64,000 nt of DNA from positions 1-64,000 of the forward strand of contig NZ_BOQP01000051.1 in assembly GCF_018332715.1 (NCBI RefSeq). Reading direction: 5' to 3'. This document shows, piece after piece, positions 503 to 11,019 of this stretch. The position numbers and the translations under genes were made by a program. The stretch is from Winogradskya consettensis. Lineage in GTDB: Bacteria > Actinomycetota > Actinomycetes > Mycobacteriales > Micromonosporaceae. Under the pieces are notes generated by a model. That model had not been told where the DNA came from and made no database searches. It saw only the letters and a program-made list of their open reading frames with translations. Every line of letters begins with the position of its first letter. Within the stretch, counting starts at the first letter, position 1.

Positions 503-1645
503 TTATGGGAGGGCTTTGAGGAGGGCTTCGTCGTGGGTGAGGTCGGGGGCCAGGAGGGTGAGGATGTCTCGGGAGGAGGCTGCTCGCTGGAGATAGGGGG
601 CGGCGGCTGGGTCGTTGAGGGGGGCGCCTGCGCCGCGGAGGTGGTTGATCCAGGCCGAGACGATTCGGAGGGCGGCGGTGGGCATGCGGCCGGCGGAGCG
701 TTCGGCGCGGAGGACGGGGAGGACTCGGATGGGGAGTTTTTGGGAGCCGTCGGTGGCTATCTGGGCGAGGGTGTGGTGGATTCGGGGGTTGGCGAAGCGG
801 GTGAGCAGGGCGGCGCGGTAGGTCAGGAGTTCGGGGGCGGGGAGGGGGACGTGGCGGGAGGCTTCGTCCCACCATTCGTTGAGCCAGGTTCGGCAGGTGG
901 GGTCGGCGACCGCTGATGCCACTGTGGTGTGGCCGAGGGCGCTGCCGGCGTACGCCAAGAGGGTGTGGGCGCCGTTGAGGAGGAAGAGTTTGCGGGTTTC
1001 GTGCGGGCGCACGTCCGTCACGAAGCGGGCGCCGGCGGCTTCCCAGGTGGGGCGGCCCGCGGGGAAGGTGCCGCTGAGGATCCACTCGGTGAAGGGTTCG
1101 GTGATCACGTCTACGCCGGGGGTGGGGTTGCGAGGGGTTATGCGGTCGACCATCGTGGATACGAAGCTGACGTTGTCGGTGATCCAGGTGGCCAGGGCGG
1201 GGTCCGCGAGGGCTGCCACTGCCTGCGCGGTGGTGGAGCCGTTGGCGGGGATGTTGTCGCAGGGGATGATGGCGATCGAGCCTGCTCCGGCTGCGCGGCG
1301 GGCGGCGAGGCCGGCTACCAGGCGGGCGGGGACGAAGTCGGCGTAGGCCGCTTCGGTGACCGTCAGGGTGAGGACGGCGACCGAGGGGCGGGACATCCAG
1401 GAGCGCCACGCCGTGAGGTCGGTGCCGGGTAGCGCTGTGGTGATCGCGGTCTGGGGTTCGGTGCGGTCTTCGGACGGGCCTCGGACCACCAGGTTGTAAC
1501 GGCAGTCCCGGCGGGTCAGCTCGTCCGCCAGGTCGGGTGAGCGGCCGGTGAAGGCGGTGATGCTCCAGCGGGGGTCCGCGCCGGTGTACCAGGCCTGGTG
1601 GGCCCGGAAGAAGTTGCCCAGGCCGAGGTGGAGATGGTGGTTCAC
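503..1645 (-). CDS. Mannitol dehydrogenase family protein, probable fructuronate reductase
   Basis: This 380-residue protein belongs to the polyol/hexuronate dehydrogenase family that reduces D-fructuronate to D-mannonate (UxuB) or tagaturonate to altronate with NADH. The N-terminal Rossmann start reads HLGLGNFFRAHQ, and the family catalytic set is visible as Lys219, Asn224 and His227 in KLFLLNGAHTLL, with the spacing K-x4-N-x2-H. It is about 100 residues shorter than E. coli UxuB, so the exact substrate is inferred. The GTG start overlaps the uxaC stop as GTGA, showing translational coupling. Pairing with glucuronate isomerase makes fructuronate reduction the most likely role. No mannonate dehydratase (UxuA) follows it. 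Confidence 0.8.
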   Translation of the reverse strand: MNHHLHLGLGNFFRAHQAWYTGADPRWSITAFTGRSPDLADELTRRDCRYNLVVRGPSEDRTEPQTAITTALPGTDLTAWRSWMSRPSVAVLTLTVTEAAYADFVPARLVAGLAARRAAGAGSIAIIPCDNIPANGSTTAQAVAALADPALATWITDNVSFVSTMVDRITPRNPTPGVDVITEPFTEWILSGTFPAGRPTWEAAGARFVTDVRPHETRKLFLLNGAHTLLAYAGSALGHTTVASAVADPTCRTWLNEWWDEASRHVPLPAPELLTYRAALLTRFANPRIHHTLAQIATDGSQKLPIRVLPVLRAERSAGRMPTAALRIVSAWINHLRGAGAPLNDPAAAPYLQRAASSRDILTLLAPDLTHDEALLKALP

Positions 1646-3027
1646 AGTTTGAACACCTTCCGGGGCTGGTCGCGGACGAGTGCGGTGAGGGCGTCCAGGG
1701 CTTCGTCCTCGTCCAGGCGGTGCGACGTGACCAGGCCGGCGAGGAAAGCGGCGTCTAGGCGGCGGGACATGTCGTGGCGGGCGGGGATGGAGCAGAACGC
1801 GCGGGTGTCGTCGACGAAGCCGGAGAGGCGGCTGAGGCCGGCGATCTCGGTGATCGCGTGCTGGAAGTGGGCGATCGAGGCGGGGTTGTCGAGGAACCAC
1901 CAGGGGGCGCCGGCGTAGACGGACGGGTAGAAGCCAGCGAGCGGGGCGATCTCGCGGGTGTAGACGTCCGGGTCCACGGTGAACAGGACCAGGTGGAAGC
2001 CGGGGTGGGTGCCGAACTTTTCGAGCAGCGGCTGCAGGGAACGGGTGTATTCGGCGGTGACGGGGATGTCGTGGCCGGTGTCGGGGCCGAAGCGGTGCAG
2101 GGTCGGCGGGTGGTGGCCGCGGTGGACGCCCGGGTGCAGTGTCATGACCAGGCCGTCGTCGCAGGACATCCGGGCCATCTCGAAGGTCATGTGGCGGCGG
2201 AACGCGGTGGCCTCGGCGGAGGTGACGGTGCCGGCGAGCGCGGAGCGGTAGATGCGCGAGGCCTCGCCCGTGGAGAGCGGTTCGGTGCCGGCGTCGAGGT
2301 GGCCGTGGTCGGCGGAGACCGCGCCGTGGTCGGCGAAGTAGCGTCTGCGGTCCTCGAGCCACGCGATGTAACCGGCGTAGTCGCCGAACTCCTTCGCGAG
2401 CAACGGCCAGCCGGGGCGGCCGATCTCCAGGTAGCGGTCGGGGCGGAACGTCGGCGCGACCACGGTGGAGACCGCGGGGTCGGCGCGCAGGGCCCGGTGG
2501 GCGGCGAGGTCGTCGGCCGGGTCGTCGGTGGTGGCCAGGAACTCGATGGTGAAGCGCGAAAGCAGGGCCCGGGGGCGATGGGTGTCCATCGCCAGTTGTC
2601 CGGCGATCACGTCGTACAGATCATCGGCGTTGGACGCGGACGGCCGTGAGGTGATGCCGAAGATCTCCGCGAGCTCGCTGTCGAACCAGTACCTGACGGG
2701 CGTACCTCTCAGCAGGTCCCAATGTGCACAGAGCAGGCGCCACGCCTCGCGGGCCCGGGCCTCCGGCATCGGCGGCTCCCCCACCCCCAGAGCGTCCAGC
2801 GGTACGCCGCCCGCGTGCAACAACCGCGTCACGTAGTGGTCGGGCTGGATGAACAGGCTGGCCGGGTCGGCGAACGGGGTGTCGTGCAGGAGCAGGCCCG
2901 GGTCGACGTGGCCGTGCGGGCTGATGATCGGCAGATCGCGTACGCCCTGGTAGAGGCGGCGGGCGAGGGAGCGTACGCCCGGGTCGGCGGGCAGCAGCCG
3001 GTCGGGGTGCAGCGTCAGGGCAGCCAT
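1642..3027 (-). CDS. uxaC: Glucuronate isomerase
   Basis: UxaC interconverts D-glucuronate and D-fructuronate (or galacturonate and tagaturonate), the entry step of hexuronate breakdown in the cytoplasm. The 461-residue length is normal for the family (about 470). The amidohydrolase-fold metal site begins with SPHGHVDP (His38, His40), followed by the typical pattern of a pDhYv.RlL segment (QPDHYVTRLLHAGG) and an RYWF/H-rich middle. I start at ATG 3027 because the open frame upstream has no family similarity and overlaps the divergent operator region. It is first in a two-gene leftward operon with the reductase and is transcribed divergently from the transport operon, so both units probably answer to the same regulator. 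Confidence 0.92.
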   Translation of the reverse strand: MAALTLHPDRLLPADPGVRSLARRLYQGVRDLPIISPHGHVDPGLLLHDTPFADPASLFIQPDHYVTRLLHAGGVPLDALGVGEPPMPEARAREAWRLLCAHWDLLRGTPVRYWFDSELAEIFGITSRPSASNADDLYDVIAGQLAMDTHRPRALLSRFTIEFLATTDDPADDLAAHRALRADPAVSTVVAPTFRPDRYLEIGRPGWPLLAKEFGDYAGYIAWLEDRRRYFADHGAVSADHGHLDAGTEPLSTGEASRIYRSALAGTVTSAEATAFRRHMTFEMARMSCDDGLVMTLHPGVHRGHHPPTLHRFGPDTGHDIPVTAEYTRSLQPLLEKFGTHPGFHLVLFTVDPDVYTREIAPLAGFYPSVYAGAPWWFLDNPASIAHFQHAITEIAGLSRLSGFVDDTRAFCSIPARHDMSRRLDAAFLAGLVTSHRLDEDEALDALTALVRDQPRKVFKL

Positions 3028-3066
3028 CGCCCGAGCGTTCGCGGGCGCCCGGCGCGGCAGCAAGTG

Positions 3067-3129
3067 GTTGCCACCTGTTGCCGCGACGCCCCTGGCAACA
3101 AACGGCAACTCATTGTGCCGCCGGTTGCC
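3067..3129. promoter_or_regulatory. Multi-copy GTTGCC operator array between the divergent operons
   Basis: Directly visible: GTTGCC at 3067-3072 and 3077-3082, its reverse complement GGCAAC at 3094-3099 and 3104-3109, and a fifth GTTGCC at 3124-3129. The first four copies form a mirror arrangement: two direct copies 10 bp apart, an 11-bp centre, then two inverted copies 10 bp apart. The array lies in the 139-bp gap between uxaC (start 3027) and the binding-protein gene (start 3167). Such placement suggests binding sites for a dimeric regulator controlling both operons. No regulator gene lies beside it. Confidence 0.65.
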
Positions 3130-3166
3130 GCGAGGAAACCATCGCGTAACAAACGAAGGAGACCAC

Positions 3167-4486
3167 ATGCGCTCCAGAAAAACCTTGGCCTTCACGTCGA
3201 TCCTGGGCCTTACGCTCGCCATGGCGGCGTGCGGTGGCGGGGACGACAGCGGCGGCAGCAAATCGATCAACGTGCTGATAGCGGCGAACACGCAGTATCC
3301 CCAGGAGCAGCAGGCCTGGCAGAAGTCGATAGCCGAGCAGTTCAGGACGCAGACCGGCGCCGACGTGAAGTGGGAGACGTTCGCGAGCGCCAACGACGAG
3401 CTCACGAAGATCCAGACGTCGGTGGTGTCCGGCTCCGGCCCGGACGTGTACGCGGTCGGCACGACGTTCACGCCCACGGCGTACTCCACCAAGGCCTTCG
3501 TGACCCTGGGTGACGAACAGTGGAAGCAGGTCGGCGGCAAGGAGAAGTTCATCCCGTCCGCGCTGGGCATCTCGGGGCCGGACGCGCAGAACCAGATCGG
3601 CATCCCGTGGGTGGGGCGCCCGTTCGTGATGGTCTACAACACCGAGCTGCTCAAGGCGGCGGGCATCGACAAGCCCGCGACGACCTGGGACGAGCTGACC
3701 GCGCAGGCGAAGAAGCTGACCACCGGCGATCAGCACGGGCTGGCGGTGGCGTACAAGGACAACTTCGACCCGTGGAAGTTCATCTGGGGCATGTCCGCGC
3801 AGGCCGGCAACCCGATCGTGGACGGGAGGACGGCGCGCATCCAGGATCCTGCGGTACAGAAGGCGTACCAGACGTATTTCGGCTGGCTGGCCACCGACAA
3901 GGTGGTCGATCCCGCGGCGGTGGGCTGGACCAACTCGCAGGCGATCGCCGCGTTCGCGGAGGGCAAAACCGGCTACATGGCGCTCACCTCGGCGCTGGCG
4001 ACCAAGGCGCTCGACGCGGGCGCGGTCAAGGGCAAGTGGCAGTTCGCGCTGCTCCCGACCGTGCCGCCCGGCGCGACGAGCCGCCCGGCGAACGGGGTCG
4101 AGGCGGCGAGCATCCTCTCCGGCGACAATTTGCTGGTCGCGGACTACTCCAGGAACAAGGATCTCGCGTTCCAGTTCGTCAAGCTGATCACCGATGAGCC
4201 GGCCCAACTGGAGATCTACCAGCAGCTCGGCCAGCTGCCGTCGAACGCGGCGGCGGCGCAGAGCCTGCAGTCCGACCCGAAGCTCAAGGTGGTGGTCGAG
4301 GCGCAGCAGAAGTCGGTGGCGACGCCGTTCTCCGGGGCGTGGGCCGACGTGCAGCTCGCGCTGACCAACGCGGTGGTGCAGTCCATCCCGGACCTGTCGA
4401 AGGGCTCGATCAGCACCGCCACGATCGACGGCCGGCTCGCCGACGCGCAGAAGAAGGCGCAATCGGCACTCGACCGGGCCAAGTAG
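3167..4486 (+). CDS. ABC transporter sugar-binding lipoprotein (CUT1 type)
   Basis: This 439-residue extracytoplasmic solute-binding protein should capture a carbohydrate or uronide for the two downstream permeases. Residues 1-22 form a lipoprotein signal: basic start, hydrophobic core, then MAAC with the lipidated Cys22, followed by a Gly/Asp/Ser-rich linker. The mature part shows the family 1 binding-protein pattern, including GSGPDVYAVG near residue 90 and a Gly-Ile-Pro-Trp stretch. ATG 3167 is preceded by a good GAAGGAGA site. It is the first gene of a tightly packed plus-strand operon. The transporter has no ATPase gene in the window, so it probably uses a shared MsmK/UgpC-like ATPase. 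The ligand is inferred from the uronate enzymes nearby. Confidence 0.9.
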   Translation: MRSRKTLAFTSILGLTLAMAACGGGDDSGGSKSINVLIAANTQYPQEQQAWQKSIAEQFRTQTGADVKWETFASANDELTKIQTSVVSGSGPDVYAVGTTFTPTAYSTKAFVTLGDEQWKQVGGKEKFIPSALGISGPDAQNQIGIPWVGRPFVMVYNTELLKAAGIDKPATTWDELTAQAKKLTTGDQHGLAVAYKDNFDPWKFIWGMSAQAGNPIVDGRTARIQDPAVQKAYQTYFGWLATDKVVDPAAVGWTNSQAIAAFAEGKTGYMALTSALATKALDAGAVKGKWQFALLPTVPPGATSRPANGVEAASILSGDNLLVADYSRNKDLAFQFVKLITDEPAQLEIYQQLGQLPSNAAAAQSLQSDPKLKVVVEAQQKSVATPFSGAWADVQLALTNAVVQSIPDLSKGSISTATIDGRLADAQKKAQSALDRAK

Positions 4487-5352
4487 TGCGCCAGCGGCCG
4501 CTGTGGCTCCTCGCGCCGGGCGGGGCGCTGATGATCCTGGTCATCCTGCTCCCGCTCGGCCTGGCGGGGTGGATCTCGACGATCGACCTGGACCAGTACA
4601 CGCTGCGCCGGTGGGTGCAGGCGCCGTTCATCGGGCTCGGCAACTACACGGAGTCGCTCGGGTCGGGGCTGCTGCACTCCATCTGGATCAGCGTGTCGTT
4701 CGCGGTGCTGTCCACGCTCGCCACGATCCCGATCGGCATAGCGGCCGCCCTGGTCACCCAGAACGCGTACCGAGGCCGCGCTCTGGTCCGTGCGGTCTTC
4801 CTGATCCCGTACGTCCTGCCGTCGTTCGTGGTCGCCACCGTCTGGCGGACCATGCTGCAGCCCGACGGGGTGGTGAACAACTGGCTCGGCGCGGACGGTT
4901 CGCTGTGGCTGAGCGGGCCCCGGTCGTACTGGGCGCTGATCCTGGTGGAGATCTGGGCGGCGTGGCCGTTCATCTATCTGATGGCGCTCGCCGCGCTGCA
5001 GTCGGTCGACCACGAGGTGCACGAGGCGTCGGCGGTCGACGGCGCGACGTGGTGGCCGAAGCTGACCCGGGTGGTGCTGCCGTATCTGCGCGGCCCGGTG
5101 CTGCTGGCCTGCCTGCTCGCCACGCTCAACCACATCAACAATTTCACGCTGCCGTTCGTGCTGTTCGGGGCGCCCGCACCGGACGACGTCAACGTGATGC
5201 CGATGCTCGTCTACGTCACCAGTTTCCAGAGTCTGCGGTTCGGGCTGAGCGCGGCGATGGCCGTCGTGTCGCTGATCATCATCGCGATCCCGCTCTTCGC
5301 CTATCTGCGCGCCGTACGCCTGGACGTCCACGAGGAAGGAGGCCGCCGATGA
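4486..5352 (+). CDS. ABC sugar transporter permease (MalF type)
   Basis: This 288-residue membrane protein has six predicted hydrophobic helices and the permease EAA loop around EASAVDGATWWPKLTRVVLP, which contacts the ATPase. The start is assigned to GTG 4486, which shares one base with the stop of the binding-protein gene (TAGTG), so translation is coupled; no separate Shine-Dalgarno is evident. A longer in-frame extension upstream would lie entirely within the preceding gene and lacks family similarity. It ends with an ATGA overlap on the second permease. Together the two permeases form the membrane channel of the CUT1 importer. Confidence 0.88.
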   Translation: MRQRPLWLLAPGGALMILVILLPLGLAGWISTIDLDQYTLRRWVQAPFIGLGNYTESLGSGLLHSIWISVSFAVLSTLATIPIGIAAALVTQNAYRGRALVRAVFLIPYVLPSFVVATVWRTMLQPDGVVNNWLGADGSLWLSGPRSYWALILVEIWAAWPFIYLMALAALQSVDHEVHEASAVDGATWWPKLTRVVLPYLRGPVLLACLLATLNHINNFTLPFVLFGAPAPDDVNVMPMLVYVTSFQSLRFGLSAAMAVVSLIIIAIPLFAYLRAVRLDVHEEGGRR

Positions 5353-6212
5353 GCGCGTCGACGGAGGCCACCCGGCTGCTCCCCCGGCCGTTGATCGTGA
5401 CGCTGACCGCGGTGCTGTGCGCGATCGTGCTGGCGCCGATCCTCTACATCGTGCTGGCCTCGCTGAACAGCGACGTGGGCGTGGCGTCCGGGGAGTTCTG
5501 GCCGAGCTCGTTCAGCCTGGACAGCTACTCCCGGGTGTGGACGACCGCCGACCTGGCCACCGGGATCGTCAACAGCCTGCTCGTGTGCGCGCTGACCGCG
5601 GTCGCGTCGGCGCTGCTCGGGACGACGACGGCGTACGTCCTGGTCCGCTACACGTTCACGGGCCGGCTGACGATCCTGCGGGGCCTGGTCGGGTTGCAGA
5701 GCATCCCGGGCACGCTGATGCTGCTGCCGGTGTTCGTGCTGTTCTCGTCGGCCGGCAACTATCTGGGGCTGACCGTGATCGGCACCCGGTGGGGGCTGTT
5801 CGTGGCGTACCTGACGTTCGCGTTGCCGTTCTCCACCTGGGTGATGGTGACCTATCTGCGCGGGCTGCCCCGCGAGCTGGAGGAGGCGGCCCGCACCGAG
5901 GGCGCGTCCACGCTGGTCATCCTGCGCCGCATCATCATCCCGCTGAGTCTGCCGGCGATCGTGGTCGCCGGGATCTTCGCGTTCCTGCTCGGCTGGAACG
6001 ACGTCCTGTTCGCCTCGGTGCTGACCCGGCCCGACACGCACACCGCCGCCGTGGCGCTGCAGGTCTTCGGCTCGTCGCAGGAGGGCGGCGCGGTGCCGGT
6101 GTACTCGCAGATGATGGCCGCCGCGCTGATCTGCGCCGTCCCGGTGGTCGTGCTCTACCTGGTCTTCCAGCGCTACCTGGTGGGCGGGCTGACCACGGGC
6201 GGCGTGAAGTGA
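5349..6212 (+). CDS. ABC sugar transporter permease (MalG type)
   Basis: A 287-residue inner-membrane permease that pairs with the preceding MalF-type subunit. It has an N-terminal transmembrane segment, a periplasmic stretch with LASLNSD typical of MalG-type subunits, and a conserved EAA loop EEAARTEGASTLVILRRIII near residues 180-200. ATG 5349 overlaps the previous stop (ATGA) and is preceded by a strong GGAAGGAGG site at 5334-5342. The last bases overlap the next gene as GTGA. Confidence 0.9.
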   Translation: MSASTEATRLLPRPLIVTLTAVLCAIVLAPILYIVLASLNSDVGVASGEFWPSSFSLDSYSRVWTTADLATGIVNSLLVCALTAVASALLGTTTAYVLVRYTFTGRLTILRGLVGLQSIPGTLMLLPVFVLFSSAGNYLGLTVIGTRWGLFVAYLTFALPFSTWVMVTYLRGLPRELEEAARTEGASTLVILRRIIIPLSLPAIVVAGIFAFLLGWNDVLFASVLTRPDTHTAAVALQVFGSSQEGGAVPVYSQMMAAALICAVPVVVLYLVFQRYLVGGLTTGGVK

Positions 6213-7087
6213 CCCGGGTGGCGGTGATCGGGCGCGGTGACGTGTCGGTGGTGCATCTCGCGGCGATCTCCCAGTTGGGCGTCGAGCTGGTCGACGCCGG
6301 CGACCAACCGGACGTGGTGCATGTGTGCACGCCGCACGACCAGCACGTACCCGTCGCCCTCGAAGCACTTCGCAACGGCGCGCACGTGCTGCTGGAGAAG
6401 CCGGTGGCGAACACGGTCGCGGAGGCGGAGAAGCTCGTCGGCGCCTACCCCGGCAGGAAGATCGGGGTGTGCCTGCAGAACCGCTACAACCCCACCTCGA
6501 TGGCGGCTCATGACCTGATCGCCTCGGGGAAGGTCGGCGCGGTCCGGGGTGCTTCGGCGTCGGTGTTGTGGCACCGCGACGAGGCGTACTACCGGGCCCG
6601 GCCGTGGCGCGGGCAGCGCAGACGCAGCGGCGGCGGGGTGCTGATCAACCAGGCGATCCACACCCTGGACCTTCTGCTGTGGCTGGTCGGGGGTGTTACC
6701 CGGGTACGCGGTGACCTCGGCGGCTATCTCGACATCCCCGGCGTCGACGTGGAGGACACCGCGCACCTGATCCTCGACCACGCCGGCGGGGCACGCAGCA
6801 CGTTCTTCGCCACGCTCGCCAATGCCACCGATGCCCCGGTCACCATCGAGATCGTCGCCGAGCAGGCCACCCTGCTGATCCGCGGCGACCTGACCGTCAC
6901 GTGGTCCGACGGGCGCACCGAGGTCATCGCCGAGCAGGCGGCGAGCGGCGGTGGGCGTACCTATTGGGGCGCCTCCCACCAGCTGCTCATCGCCGATTTC
7001 TACCGCCGCCTGCACGATCCGGAGCCGTTCTGGATCGGCCCGCAGGAGGCGTTGAAAGCACAACGGCTCATCGAAGGGCTCTACTGA
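6209..7087 (+). CDS. Gfo/Idh/MocA family oxidoreductase, shortened Rossmann domain
   Basis: This 292-residue NAD(P)-dependent oxidoreductase would oxidise or reduce a hydroxyl of a sugar or cyclitol. The nucleotide loop reads VAVIGRGDVSVVH, and the family signature EKP appears in HVLLEKPVANT at about residues 61-71; a C-terminal alpha/beta substrate domain follows, with GGGVLINQAIHTLDL. Compared with the paralogue at 7911-8951, roughly 25-30 residues are missing between the second strand (VELVDAGD) and DVVHVCTPHD, where the adenine-ribose-binding acidic strand normally lies. The gap is in frame and the rest is well conserved, so it may be a genuine variant. The GTG start overlaps the previous stop (GTGA). 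Confidence 0.85.
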   Translation: MTRVAVIGRGDVSVVHLAAISQLGVELVDAGDQPDVVHVCTPHDQHVPVALEALRNGAHVLLEKPVANTVAEAEKLVGAYPGRKIGVCLQNRYNPTSMAAHDLIASGKVGAVRGASASVLWHRDEAYYRARPWRGQRRRSGGGVLINQAIHTLDLLLWLVGGVTRVRGDLGGYLDIPGVDVEDTAHLILDHAGGARSTFFATLANATDAPVTIEIVAEQATLLIRGDLTVTWSDGRTEVIAEQAASGGGRTYWGASHQLLIADFYRRLHDPEPFWIGPQEALKAQRLIEGLY

Positions 7088-7914
7088 TGTGGACGCTGTC
7101 CGGTTTCATCGACGAGATCTCCCCCGACTTCACCGAGCAGTGCGAGGTCGCCGCGGGGCTCGGCCTCACGTTCGCCGAGGTGCGCAGCGCCTGGGACATC
7201 AACATCCTCGACCTCTCCGCCGAGCAACTCGACACGGTCAAGAAAACCCTCGCACGGTACGGGCTCCAGGTGTCCAGCATCGGCTCGCCGATCGGGAAGA
7301 TAGGCGTACGTAAGGACTTCGCGCCGCACCTCGACCGCATGCGCCACGCCGCGGAGGTGGCCCACCTGCTCGGCGCGCCGTACATCCGGATCTTCTCGTT
7401 CTTCCTGCCGCCCGGCGCCGACCCCGCCGAGCACCGCGGTGAGGTGATCGACCGGATGCGCGCCCTGACCCGCGTCGCCGAGGAGAACGACCTGGTCCTG
7501 CTGCACGAGAACGAGAAGGAGATCTACGGCGACGTGCCGGAACGCTGCCTCGACCTGGTCCGCTCGGTGGACTCGCCGTACCTGCGGCTGGCCTGGGACC
7601 CGGCGAACTTCGTCCAGGTCGGGGTCCGGCCCTACACCGACGGGTACGCGATGCTGCGGCCGCACGTGGAATACGTACAGATCAAGGATGCCTTCGCCGT
7701 CGACGGCACGGTGGTGCCGGCCGGGCAGGGCGACGGTGAGGTCGCCGCGACGATGCGGGCGCTGCACCACGACGGGTTCGACGGCTTCTTCTCCCTCGAA
7801 CCGCACCTCGCCGCCGGCCACACCACCGGCGGTTTCTCCGGACCGGACCTGTTCCGCACCGCCTGGCAGTCGTTCACCGACCTGCTGACAGCCGAGGAGA
7901 TCGAGTTCCAGTGA
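7087..7914 (+). CDS. Sugar phosphate isomerase/epimerase family TIM-barrel protein
   Basis: A 275-residue AP-endonuclease-2/xylose-isomerase-like TIM barrel. Probable divalent-metal ligands are seen in LLHENEKEIYGD, the Asp of LAWDPANF, the Asp of VQIKDA and the Glu of FSLEPHL. Family members include isomerases, IolE-type dehydratases and lyases acting on 3-keto sugars. It starts at ATG 7087, sharing one base with the previous stop (TGATG), and overlaps the next gene by GTGA. The immediate pairing with a Gfo/Idh oxidoreductase on both sides suggests that the two enzyme types act in sequence on one ligand. The exact reaction cannot be read from sequence. Confidence 0.85.
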   Translation: MWTLSGFIDEISPDFTEQCEVAAGLGLTFAEVRSAWDINILDLSAEQLDTVKKTLARYGLQVSSIGSPIGKIGVRKDFAPHLDRMRHAAEVAHLLGAPYIRIFSFFLPPGADPAEHRGEVIDRMRALTRVAEENDLVLLHENEKEIYGDVPERCLDLVRSVDSPYLRLAWDPANFVQVGVRPYTDGYAMLRPHVEYVQIKDAFAVDGTVVPAGQGDGEVAATMRALHHDGFDGFFSLEPHLAAGHTTGGFSGPDLFRTAWQSFTDLLTAEEIEFQ

Positions 7915-8951
7915 CCACGAAGACGAAGTTCGCCCTGGTCGGCGCGGGAGTGATCGGCAGACACCACGGGTCGGTCATGCAGGCGCTCAGCGATCGCATC
8001 GAGCTGGTCGCGGTCGCCGACGTTGATTCAGTACGCGCGGAGCGGCTGACCTCCGAGCACGGCGGCCGCCCGTACCCGTCGCTGCGCGCGGCCCTGTCCG
8101 CCGAGGACGTCGACGTCGTGGTGGTCTGCACGCCGACCGGCAGGCACGGCGAGGTCGCGATCGAGGCGCTGAACGCGGGCAAGCACGTGATCCTGGAGAA
8201 GCCGGCGGAGATCACGGTCGCGCGTACCGACGAGATCATCGCGGCCCGGCAGCGGGCCGGCACCCTCGTCACGGTGATCTCGCAGCACCGCTTCGACCCG
8301 GCGACGGAGCAGACCCTGACGGCGATCGGGCGCGGCGAGTTCGGGCGGCTCACGTCGGGCATCGCGGCGATCGACTGGTGGCGCGGGCAGAGCTACTACG
8401 ACTCCGGCGACTGGCGCGGGACGTGGGACCTCGACGGCGGCGGCGCGCTGATGAACCAGGGGGTGCACACCGTCGACCTGCTCATCGCCGCGCTCGGACG
8501 GCCTGTGGAAGTGTTCGCGTACACCGGGACTCTCGCCCACGAACGCATCGAGGTGGAGGACGTCGCGGCCGGGGTGGTGCGGTTCGCGTCGGGGGCGCTC
8601 GGGGTGCTGCACGCGACGACGTCGGCGTATCCGGGGCTGAGCGCGCGCCTCCAGGTGCACGGCGACCGCGGCTCGGCGGTGATCGACAACGACCGGATGG
8701 CGTTCTTCCATTCGACGCCGGCCGGAACCTCACCGGTCGAGATGCAGATGGGCGGCACCCGGGTGACCTCCGGTTTTGTGGATCCGGTGGGACTTGGTGA
8801 CACCCATCAGCGCCAGTATCTCAACTTCCTCGGGGCGCTGGCCGGGACCGAGAAGCTGCGGGTCGACCTGGAGACCAACCGGCAGTCGATCGGGGTCATC
8901 GCCGGGGCGTACGAGTCGGCCCGCACCGGCCGTCCGGTGGCCCTGTCATGA
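7911..8951 (+). CDS. Gfo/Idh/MocA family oxidoreductase
   Basis: This 346-residue protein has the full family architecture: Rossmann motif VGAGVIGRHHG at residues 10-20, the acidic strand VAVADVD, the VVVVCTPTGRH turn, and the signature HVILEKPAE, followed by the C-terminal substrate domain with GGGALMNQGVHTVDLL, whose Asp and His are typical catalytic positions. It starts at GTG 7911 in a GTGA overlap. It is the complete-length counterpart of the oxidoreductase at 6209 and is followed by a second TIM-barrel protein, so the operon has two oxidoreductase/TIM-barrel pairs. Confidence 0.9.
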   Translation: MTTKTKFALVGAGVIGRHHGSVMQALSDRIELVAVADVDSVRAERLTSEHGGRPYPSLRAALSAEDVDVVVVCTPTGRHGEVAIEALNAGKHVILEKPAEITVARTDEIIAARQRAGTLVTVISQHRFDPATEQTLTAIGRGEFGRLTSGIAAIDWWRGQSYYDSGDWRGTWDLDGGGALMNQGVHTVDLLIAALGRPVEVFAYTGTLAHERIEVEDVAAGVVRFASGALGVLHATTSAYPGLSARLQVHGDRGSAVIDNDRMAFFHSTPAGTSPVEMQMGGTRVTSGFVDPVGLGDTHQRQYLNFLGALAGTEKLRVDLETNRQSIGVIAGAYESARTGRPVALS

Positions 8952-9799
8952 GCCGTATCGCCGCGAACCCCATCCCCTACTGGGCCAGGGCCGGCAAGAC
9001 CCGCGAGGTCCTCGCCGAGGCGTTCGCCGACTTCCAGGAGATCGGCTTCACCGCGGTCAAGGCGGACGTGCCCGACGACATGACCGCAGGTCAATACCAG
9101 GACTGGATCGCAGGGTACGGCCTGAGCCCGGCCCTGAGCCTGTTCAACTCCCCGTTCGACGAGACCGTCGTGCTCGCCGATGAGCTCGAGCGGGCCAAAC
9201 GGTTCGCCGCCGTCCAGGTCGCGCTCGGCCTCGACCGCACGATGGTCTCGTCGATGGGCCGCCCGGAACGGCTCGCCGCACCGGCCGTGGGAACCGGCTT
9301 CGACGCGGGCCGCCTCGACCGGGCGATCGACGCCTGCGGGCAGGTCAGCCGGGTCCTCGCCGCCGAGGGGCTGCGGCCGCTGCACCACTCGCACGTCGGC
9401 GGCGTCTTCGAGACCGAGCACGAGATCACCACGCTGCTCGACGACCTCGGCCCGGACGTGATCGGCGTCGGACCGGACACCGGGCATCTGCGCTGGGCGG
9501 GCATCGACCCGGCCGCGTTCATCACGCGCTACGCCGACCGGCTCGGCGGGATCCACCTCAAGGACTGCTTCGCCGACCTGCTCGATCGGCGCGACCTGTC
9601 GTACCGTGAGGCGACCGACAGCAAACGACTCTGGGCCGAACCGGGTCTCGGCGTGGTCGACTTCGACGCCGTGCGGGCCGCGATCCCGGCGGACTACGAC
9701 GGCGACTACATGATCGAGGTCGACGAGCCCAGTGTCGCGTCGAAGAAGGAGTCCCACCGCATGTCGTACGCCTGGGCCCAGCAGTGGACAGCGTCATGA
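8948..9799 (+). CDS. IolE-like sugar phosphate isomerase/epimerase TIM-barrel protein
   Basis: A 283-residue TIM-barrel protein resembling inosose dehydratase IolE and related epimerases. The N-terminus (NPIPYWARAGKTREVLAEAF) and the segments PLHHSHVGGVFETEHE, GVGPDTGHLRWAGID and GGIHLKDC carry the His, Glu and Asp residues expected of the metal site. ATG 8948 overlaps the previous stop (ATGA), and its own stop overlaps the LarA-like gene. It may dehydrate, epimerise or cleave the keto product of the neighbouring oxidoreductase; which one is not decided by the sequence. Confidence 0.87.
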   Translation: MSRIAANPIPYWARAGKTREVLAEAFADFQEIGFTAVKADVPDDMTAGQYQDWIAGYGLSPALSLFNSPFDETVVLADELERAKRFAAVQVALGLDRTMVSSMGRPERLAAPAVGTGFDAGRLDRAIDACGQVSRVLAAEGLRPLHHSHVGGVFETEHEITTLLDDLGPDVIGVGPDTGHLRWAGIDPAAFITRYADRLGGIHLKDCFADLLDRRDLSYREATDSKRLWAEPGLGVVDFDAVRAAIPADYDGDYMIEVDEPSVASKKESHRMSYAWAQQWTAS

Positions 9800-11019
9800 G
9801 GGTCGGCGGTCCCGAGCGTGTTCTCACCGACGACGAGGTCACCTCCTTTGTCGTGGAGCAACTCGGCGCCCTGGATGCCGACGGGTGCAGCGTCTGTGTG
9901 CTCGTGCCGGACGCCACGCGTACCTGTCCGCTCCCGCTCCTGATCCGGGCCGTGCACCGGGCCCTGCACGGCCGGGTGTCGCGGCTGACGATCCTCGTCG
10001 CGCTCGGCACCCACCGCCCGATGACGACTCCGGAGCTCGACGCCCACCTGGGGACACCGCTGCCCGGCACCGAGGTGATCAACCACGAGTGGTGGAAACC
10101 GTCGACGTTCGCGAACCTCGGGACCATCCCCGGCGCGCGGATCGAGGAGCTCTCCGAGGGCCGGATGAGCGGCGACGTCGAGGTGCTGCTCAACCGCGCG
10201 GTCCTCGACCACGACATCGCCCTGGTCGTCGGCCCGGTCCTGCCGCACGAGGTGGTCGGCATGTCCGGCGGCAACAAGTACTTCTTCCCCGGCGTCGGCG
10301 GCCAGACCATCATCGACGTGTCGCACTGGCTCGGCGCGCTCATCACCTCCGCCGAGATCATCGGCACCACCGGCCTCACCCCCGTCCGCGCCCTCATCAA
10401 CGACGGCGCCGCCCTCATCCCCGCCGAGAAGTACGCCCTCAGCGTGGTCACCGCCCCCGGCGGCGGCCTGCACTCCGTCTCGTTCGGCGACTGCCTGACC
10501 TCCTGGGCGAGCGCCGCCGAGGTCAGCGCCGCCACCCACGTCACCTATCTCGACACCCCCGTCCGCCGCGTCCTGTCCCTGATCCCCACCATGTACGACG
10601 AGATCTGGACCGGCGCGAAAGGCTTCTACAAGGTCGAGCCGATCGTCGCCGACGGCGGCGAGGTCATCCTCTACGCCCCGCACATCCGTGAGATCGCCAC
10701 CAGCCACCCCCAGATCCACGAGATCGGCTACCACTGCCGCGACTACTTCGTAAAACAGTGGGACACGTTCAAACACGTCCACTGGGGAGTACTCGCCCAC
10801 TCCACCCACCTGCGCGGCGCCGGCACCTACGACCCGGTCACGCGCGAGGAACACCTCCGCGTCCAGGTCACCCTCGCCACCGCCATCCCTTCAGCGGTCT
10901 GCCGAGCCGCCAACCTCGGCTACCGCGACCCCGCCACCATCGACATCGCCGCCTTCACCGCCGACCCGGACACCCTCGTCGTCCCCGACGCCGGCGAAGT
11001 CCTCTTCCGCCTGCGCTGA
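9796..11019 (+). CDS. LarA-type nickel-pincer racemase/epimerase homologue
   Basis: A 407-residue protein of the lactate racemase LarA family, which uses a nickel-pincer nucleotide to shift a hydride at the carbon beside a carboxylate. All four key positions of Lactiplantibacillus LarA (His108, His174, Lys184, His200) have counterparts: His73 in GTHRPMT, His151 in LPHEVVG, Lys161 in SGGNKYFFPG and His177 in VSHWLG. The last three keep the exact 10- and 16-residue spacing. I chose ATG 9796, which forms an ATGA overlap like the other junctions, over GTG 9784. It ends the operon. In a uronate/aldonate locus the substrate is probably a sugar acid rather than lactate. The cofactor genes larB, larC and larE are not in the window. 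Confidence 0.85.
   Translation: MRVGGPERVLTDDEVTSFVVEQLGALDADGCSVCVLVPDATRTCPLPLLIRAVHRALHGRVSRLTILVALGTHRPMTTPELDAHLGTPLPGTEVINHEWWKPSTFANLGTIPGARIEELSEGRMSGDVEVLLNRAVLDHDIALVVGPVLPHEVVGMSGGNKYFFPGVGGQTIIDVSHWLGALITSAEIIGTTGLTPVRALINDGAALIPAEKYALSVVTAPGGGLHSVSFGDCLTSWASAAEVSAATHVTYLDTPVRRVLSLIPTMYDEIWTGAKGFYKVEPIVADGGEVILYAPHIREIATSHPQIHEIGYHCRDYFVKQWDTFKHVHWGVLAHSTHLRGAGTYDPVTREEHLRVQVTLATAIPSAVCRAANLGYRDPATIDIAAFTADPDTLVVPDAGEVLFRLR

Follow-up and report, generated by a model that had tools for sequence, protein, structure and literature searches.

How might an actinobacterium use glucuronate if UxuA, the mannonate dehydratase of the canonical route, is missing? The question is raised by a locus of Winogradskya consettensis (Micromonosporaceae) at the start of contig NZ_BOQP01000051.1 (C51 below) of assembly GCF_018332715.1, the first 64,000 nucleotides of which form the window analysed here. 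A gene for the uronate isomerase UxaC and one for a UxuB-like reductase (503–3027, minus strand) diverge from a plus-strand operon that closes with a homologue of LarA. This arrangement had been described in an earlier interpretation made from the DNA without database searches, the sequence-only reading, and is confirmed by Pfam and NCBIfam matches and by the layout of the open reading frames (ORFs). Gene content, active-site residues, predicted fold, the neighbourhoods of related genes and co-occurrence across genomes together indicate that this is, in all likelihood, a glucuronate (glucuronide) utilization operon in which a GntE-type LarA homologue epimerises D-mannonate to D-gluconate and so feeds 6-phosphogluconate. 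Three genes are central to the proposal:

503..1645, minus strand: UxuB-like reductase of the mannitol dehydrogenase family (PF01232 and PF08125, matched on 503–1639), predicted to reduce fructuronate to D-mannonate
1642..3027, minus strand: uxaC, uronate isomerase (PF02614, 225 bits; NCBIfam NF002794), predicted to convert D-glucuronate to D-fructuronate
9784..11019, plus strand: LarA homologue of GntE type, a putative D-mannonate/D-gluconate 2-epimerase with a nickel-pincer cofactor (match to 4NAR, fold and residues)

In the proposed pathway UxaC would isomerise D-glucuronate to D-fructuronate, from which the UxuB-like reductase would form D-mannonate. The LarA homologue, equipped with a nickel-pincer nucleotide (NPN) that is the product of LarB, LarC and LarE, whose genes lie on contig C23, would then invert C2 of D-mannonate through reversible hydride transfer. 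The resulting D-gluconate would be phosphorylated by a gluconokinase, for which an FGGY kinase on contig C9 is the candidate, and the 6-phosphogluconate would enter the pentose-phosphate pathway. We infer every one of these reactions in this organism, as well as the substrate of the operon's transporter. The assembly searched amounts to 10.6 Mb in 112 contigs, with a completeness rating of 100%.

The LarA homologue

The protein is 411 residues long and is the sole match to Lar_N in the genome at E 0.001. Among solved structures its best match by sequence is 4NAR (E 7e-66, 226 bits, 33% identity), with LarA-type chains reaching 39 bits at most. This entry is GntE2 (LarAH20) of Thermotoga maritima, whose epimerisation of D-mannonate and D-gluconate with NPN was shown in 2020 according to PMC7583248. 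The AlphaFold model (mean pLDDT 93.5) superimposes on 4NAR with a Z score of 50.9 and a deviation of 1.8 Å over 401 residues, and other LarA-family entries score 36.6 or less. Lactate or malate racemase was considered as an identity and rejected: scores fall far below the cut-offs (70 bits against 460 for the LarA model NF033504) and those structures rank lower in the fold search.

Three groups of residues, each invariant in all 22 sequences aligned, support an enzyme of the GntE type. The catalytic set of LarA (D72, H108, H174 and K298) corresponds to D43, H77, H155 and K279, as placed via 4NAR; the NPN-binding set of GntE2 (R41, K164 and H180) corresponds to R46, K165 and H181 by manual count on the 4NAR alignment. 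The histidines and lysine that the sequence-only reading had numbered His73, His151, Lys161 and His177 are indeed kept, being H77, H155, K165 and H181 in the numbering that starts at the GTG codon of position 9784; the first two are the catalytic histidines and the last two belong to the nickel site. The GntE selectivity signature E, V, A, H given in PMC11770544 is present as E156, V157, A338 and H339, the last two being placed by motif against 4NAR and not through a direct alignment with LarA. The best NCBIfam model, NF052594 (LarAH group 18 putative hexonate epimerase), is matched with 170 bits against a cut-off of 500, and the protein thus lies outside that named group.

Relatives were drawn from named genomes as the best 80 of 586 confirmed matches, among which the closest belong to Paractinoplanes and Actinoplanes. 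An order-wide search returned the enzyme in 13 of 278 genomes. Eight Kribbella loci (L059, L062, L063, L064, L066, L069, L070 and L074) harbour it at 66–67% identity, and uronate, kinase and cofactor genes were not found in the DNA examined there. The homologue matches in two pieces in L079, in genome G558 (L143/L145) and in genome G683 (L144/L146), possibly owing to frameshifts or sequencing errors.

The isomerase, the reductase and the missing uxuA

UxaC exceeds the cut-off of the NCBIfam glucuronate isomerase model NF002794 (499 against 387 bits). The reductase gene has a GTG start that overlaps the uxaC stop (GTGA, 1645–1642), and its translation contains the pattern K-x4-N-x2-H, which we take to be typical of dehydrogenases of the mannitol dehydrogenase family. 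Its earlier description as fructuronate reductase-like holds at the level of the family and is weak at that of UxuB: the protein scores 162 bits as a fructuronate reductase and 177 bits as a D-arabinitol 4-dehydrogenase, with cut-offs of about 600, and its role is assigned from context.

The sequence-only reading had also stated that no uxuA follows the reductase. This cannot be read from the window, as base 1 of the window is base 1 of C51 and the contig ends just behind uxuB; the 502 bases in between contain no ORF of at least 100 amino acids wholly inside them (ORFs open at the end are not listed). The statement does stand for the genome as a whole, which returned no match to the UxuA family PF03786.

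Gene neighbourhoods of related enzymes

Neighbourhoods of the 80 relatives were called by a homology scan with one reference protein per family and fixed score thresholds. The labels were checked against NCBIfam on one example each, from loci other than these 80, for FGGY kinase, beta-glucuronidase (GUS), LarE and LarB and on the LarE, LarB and LarC references; those of Gnd and of a GPH transporter come from reading the sequence, without a family search. Several loci are short or cut by contig ends, so that the counts are lower bounds.

Near the LarA gene, uxaC is found in 47 of the 80 loci and a uxuB-like gene in 48, with either in 53. LacI genes occur in 41, Gnd in 16 and GUS in 16; the GH2 protein taken as an example is a beta-glucuronidase (870 bits, cut-off 544). 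Kinases are present in 20 loci, as FGGY gluconokinase-like genes (15) or GntK-type genes (5), and the example FGGY protein is closest to gluconokinase at 469 bits, under the cut-off of 648. Where uxaC, uxuB and the LarA gene stand together (42 loci), a kinase accompanies them in 18 and a kinase or Gnd in 24. Five loci (L051, L057, L068, L072 and L100) unite uxaC, uxuB, the LarA gene, an FGGY gluconokinase-like gene and Gnd; GUS is added in three of them and cofactor genes in two, both being present in L057 (Knoellia). UxuA was encountered in none of the 80 loci, nor in window positions 1–22000, nor in a second uronate locus of the genome (L126, below), and the UxuA query recovered its own locus at 866 bits. 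These neighbourhoods support a sequence from glucuronide through glucuronate, fructuronate, mannonate and gluconate to 6-phosphogluconate, and the five full loci mark hosts in which the GntE route could be tested.

The recurrence of Gnd and of gluconokinase-like kinases is compatible with either order of the last two steps. Mannonate might be phosphorylated first, the LarA homologue then converting 6-phospho-D-mannonate to 6-phospho-D-gluconate; this order is found in extracts of Lactobacillus suebicus (PMC6978723), and for GntE1 of Corynebacterium glutamicum the KM on D-mannonate is 120 mM and the authors question mannonate as the native substrate (PMC7583248). We nevertheless regard a phosphorylated substrate as improbable: GntE2, the closest solved relative, uses free D-mannonate (PMC7583248), and the substrates reported in PMC7583248 and PMC11770544 are unphosphorylated hydroxyacids. 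If 6-phospho-D-mannonate did prove to be the native substrate, the actinobacterial GntE clade would become a candidate for the gene behind the L. suebicus activity, and the poor KM of the C. glutamicum enzyme could be accounted for. It would also be, to our knowledge, the first nickel-pincer enzyme acting on a sugar-acid phosphate.

Cofactor genes and a possible shared regulator

Epimerisation by the LarA homologue would depend on NPN, and the search for larB, larC and larE suggested by the sequence-only reading retrieved all three. They lie on C23 (locus L006), consecutively in the order larE, larB, larC and directly behind a LacI gene; LarE, LarB and both LarC models exceed their cut-offs. 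Among the relatives LarC and LarE are each found near the LarA gene in 31 of 80 loci and LarB in 27, with any of the three in 36 and all three in 25.

The homology scan detected no LacI gene in window positions 1–22000. In L046, L048, L049 and L050, close relatives with an operon of the window's type, a LacI gene whose product scores 523–527 bits to the C23 LacI protein stands behind the LarA gene. The LacI gene of L055 (533 bits to the same protein) adjoins larE-larB-larC, which themselves adjoin the LarA gene; all five loci are of the Actinoplanes group. This distribution suggests, without proving it, that cofactor synthesis and the operon are under a common regulator.

Co-occurrence across the class

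A sample of 394 genomes of the class was searched for the enzyme at a match threshold of E 1e-20. Nineteen matches were obtained, of which that in genome G438 (28% identity, distant) was left out, giving totals of 18 genomes with the enzyme, 54 with uxaC and 22 with uxuA (two of these 22 scoring under the cut-off). Of the 18 enzyme-bearing genomes, 15 contain uxaC, compared with 54 in the whole sample of 394 (hypergeometric P 1e-11); the calculations in this section ignore kinship, and their P values are therefore not to be taken literally. Among the 54 uxaC genomes the enzyme is present in 15 and uxuA in 11, and no genome has both (P 0.018, kinship likewise ignored). The GntE route may explain how some uxaC-bearing actinobacteria that lack UxuA use glucuronate.

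Conflicting observations and other possible substrates

A number of observations weigh against the proposed route. The genome encodes ManD, a mannonate dehydratase of the enolase superfamily (716.5 bits, cut-off 550), in a gene located behind LacI and ABC transporter genes on contig C8. The same contig carries a second uxaC-UxuB locus (L126, C8:238001–258000), comprising pectate lyase, GH43, UxaC, UxuB2 and an acid-sugar dehydratase of the enolase superfamily. UxuB2 scores 302 bits as a fructuronate reductase, higher than the window reductase, and the dehydratase, which reaches no NCBIfam cut-off, perhaps stands in for UxaA/UxuA. Mannonate could accordingly leave by dehydration, and the organism has other routes for uronates and possibly for mannonate. 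The claim that mannonate dehydratase is bypassed is therefore upheld as far as uxuA is concerned and is tempered by ManD.

The last step is also open to objection. The genome contains no GntK-type kinase over the cut-off, and its FGGY gluconokinase-like kinase (401 bits against 648) is unlinked, none of its neighbours having been recognised as a uronate gene. No gluconokinase or Gnd gene was found in window positions 1–22000, the rest of the genome not having been searched for Gnd. Among the relatives, 27 of 80 loci have neither uxaC nor uxuB in the DNA examined, including the eight Kribbella loci, several loci ending at contig ends. Across the class, 3 of the 18 enzyme-bearing genomes lack uxaC; the absence of uxuA from all 18 has a genome-wide chance probability of 0.35 with kinship ignored; and in 28 of the 54 genomes with uxaC, both uxuA and the enzyme are missing.

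Some of these facts would suit an enzyme that epimerises another aldonate or an aldarate, such as altronate/allonate or glucarate/mannarate, with ManD handling mannonate. The presence of ManD, the distance of the UxuB-like protein from model UxuB and the three enzyme-bearing genomes without uxaC all fit this view, and for GntE1 a uronic or aldaric acid was suggested by the authors of PMC7583248. The recurrent gluconokinase-like kinases and Gnd near the gene speak against it, beta-glucuronidase in the neighbourhoods is indicative of glucuronate, and just one of the 80 relatives (L090, 485 bits) has a ManD-like gene close to the enzyme. Another substrate is for these reasons considered unlikely, and epimerisation of D-mannonate to D-gluconate is retained as the best-supported interpretation.

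The remaining genes of the operon

Between uxaC and the LarA homologue the plus strand encodes a transporter and two pairs of oxidoreductase and TIM-barrel genes, preceded by a putative operator:

3067..3109, divergent intergenic region between uxaC and the substrate-binding protein gene: inverted pair GTTGCCACCTGTTGCC / GGCAACAAACGGCAAC, GTTGCC-type repeats, putative operator
3168..4486, plus strand: ATP-binding cassette (ABC) transporter substrate-binding protein (PF01547)
4339..5352 as the listed ORF, plus strand: ABC permease 1 (PF00528)
5349..6212, plus strand: ABC permease 2 (PF00528)
6209..7087, plus strand: Gfo/IDH/MocA oxidoreductase 1 (PF22725 among others)
7084..7914, plus strand: xylose-isomerase-like TIM barrel 1 (PF01261)
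7911..8951, plus strand: Gfo/IDH/MocA oxidoreductase 2 (PF01408 among others)
8948..9799, plus strand: xylose-isomerase-like TIM barrel 2, IolE-like (PF01261; TIGR04379 at 82 bits, well below the cut-off of 290)

The listed ORF of permease 1 overlaps the gene for the substrate-binding protein, and the true start is therefore probably near 4500. GTTGCC repeats opposite GGCAAC repeats are also found in the corresponding region of L046, L048, L049 and L050; the 220-base stretch that precedes the C23 LacI gene showed no repeats of this type.

The two Gfo/TIM pairs may process the incoming glycoside, and could perhaps form a 3-keto (oxidative) route that releases glucuronate from glycosides. The genome search yielded no close GUS; the best match scores 113 bits and covers part of the query sequence. 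Gfo/IDH/MocA and TIM-barrel genes occur near the enzyme in 11 of the 80 relatives (L046, L048–L050, L055, L057, L068, L088, L100, L107 and L110). The idea that such modules replace beta-glucuronidase was examined and dropped: in 81 loci (the 80 and the window) GUS is present in 16, Gfo with TIM in 12 and both in one (P 0.26), which is no evidence that they exclude each other.

Comparison with known systems

The sequence-only reading was aware of no such established pathway, a view that the literature contradicts. According to PMC6978723, Rodionova et al. suggested in 2012 that Thermotoga uses a GntE-GntK-Gnd route; the T. maritima gene group gnd-uxaRED-gntEK was described in 2013 (PMC3750489), and GntE activity was demonstrated in 2020 for the T. 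maritima and also the C. glutamicum enzyme (PMC7583248). At least three GntE enzymes have shown activity in vitro (PMC7583248, PMC11770544), and in January 2020 in vivo proof of the route was still lacking according to PMC6978723. The chemistry proposed for the window is hence not new. What may be new is a glucuronide locus of actinobacteria that lacks UxuA and is frequently accompanied by nearby cofactor genes; no description of it was found among the results listed from the open-licence literature searched.

GntE2 of T. maritima and the window protein are alike in fold, in NPN and catalytic residues and in their link to uronate genes, and gluconokinase and Gnd lie nearby both in T. maritima and in relatives of the window locus. 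The two differ after the catalytic histidine, where the window protein has V157 and GntE2 has S156. T. maritima also has uxuA, whereas none was found in the window genome or in the loci of the 80 relatives. GntE1 (LarAH19) of C. glutamicum is, like the window enzyme, actinobacterial and found in a context linked to uronic acids (PMC7583248); the C. glutamicum genome used as a control gave matches to uxaC and LarC and none to Lar_N or NF052594.

The 6-phosphomannonate 2-epimerase route of L. suebicus likewise joins the UxaC and UxuB reactions to 6-phosphogluconate without UxuA, and differs in that the kinase acts before an epimerase whose gene is not identified in PMC6978723. The canonical UxaC-UxuB-UxuA route shares its first two steps with the pathway proposed here, in which dehydration to 2-keto-3-deoxygluconate by UxuA would be replaced, at the level of the locus, by epimerisation at C2.

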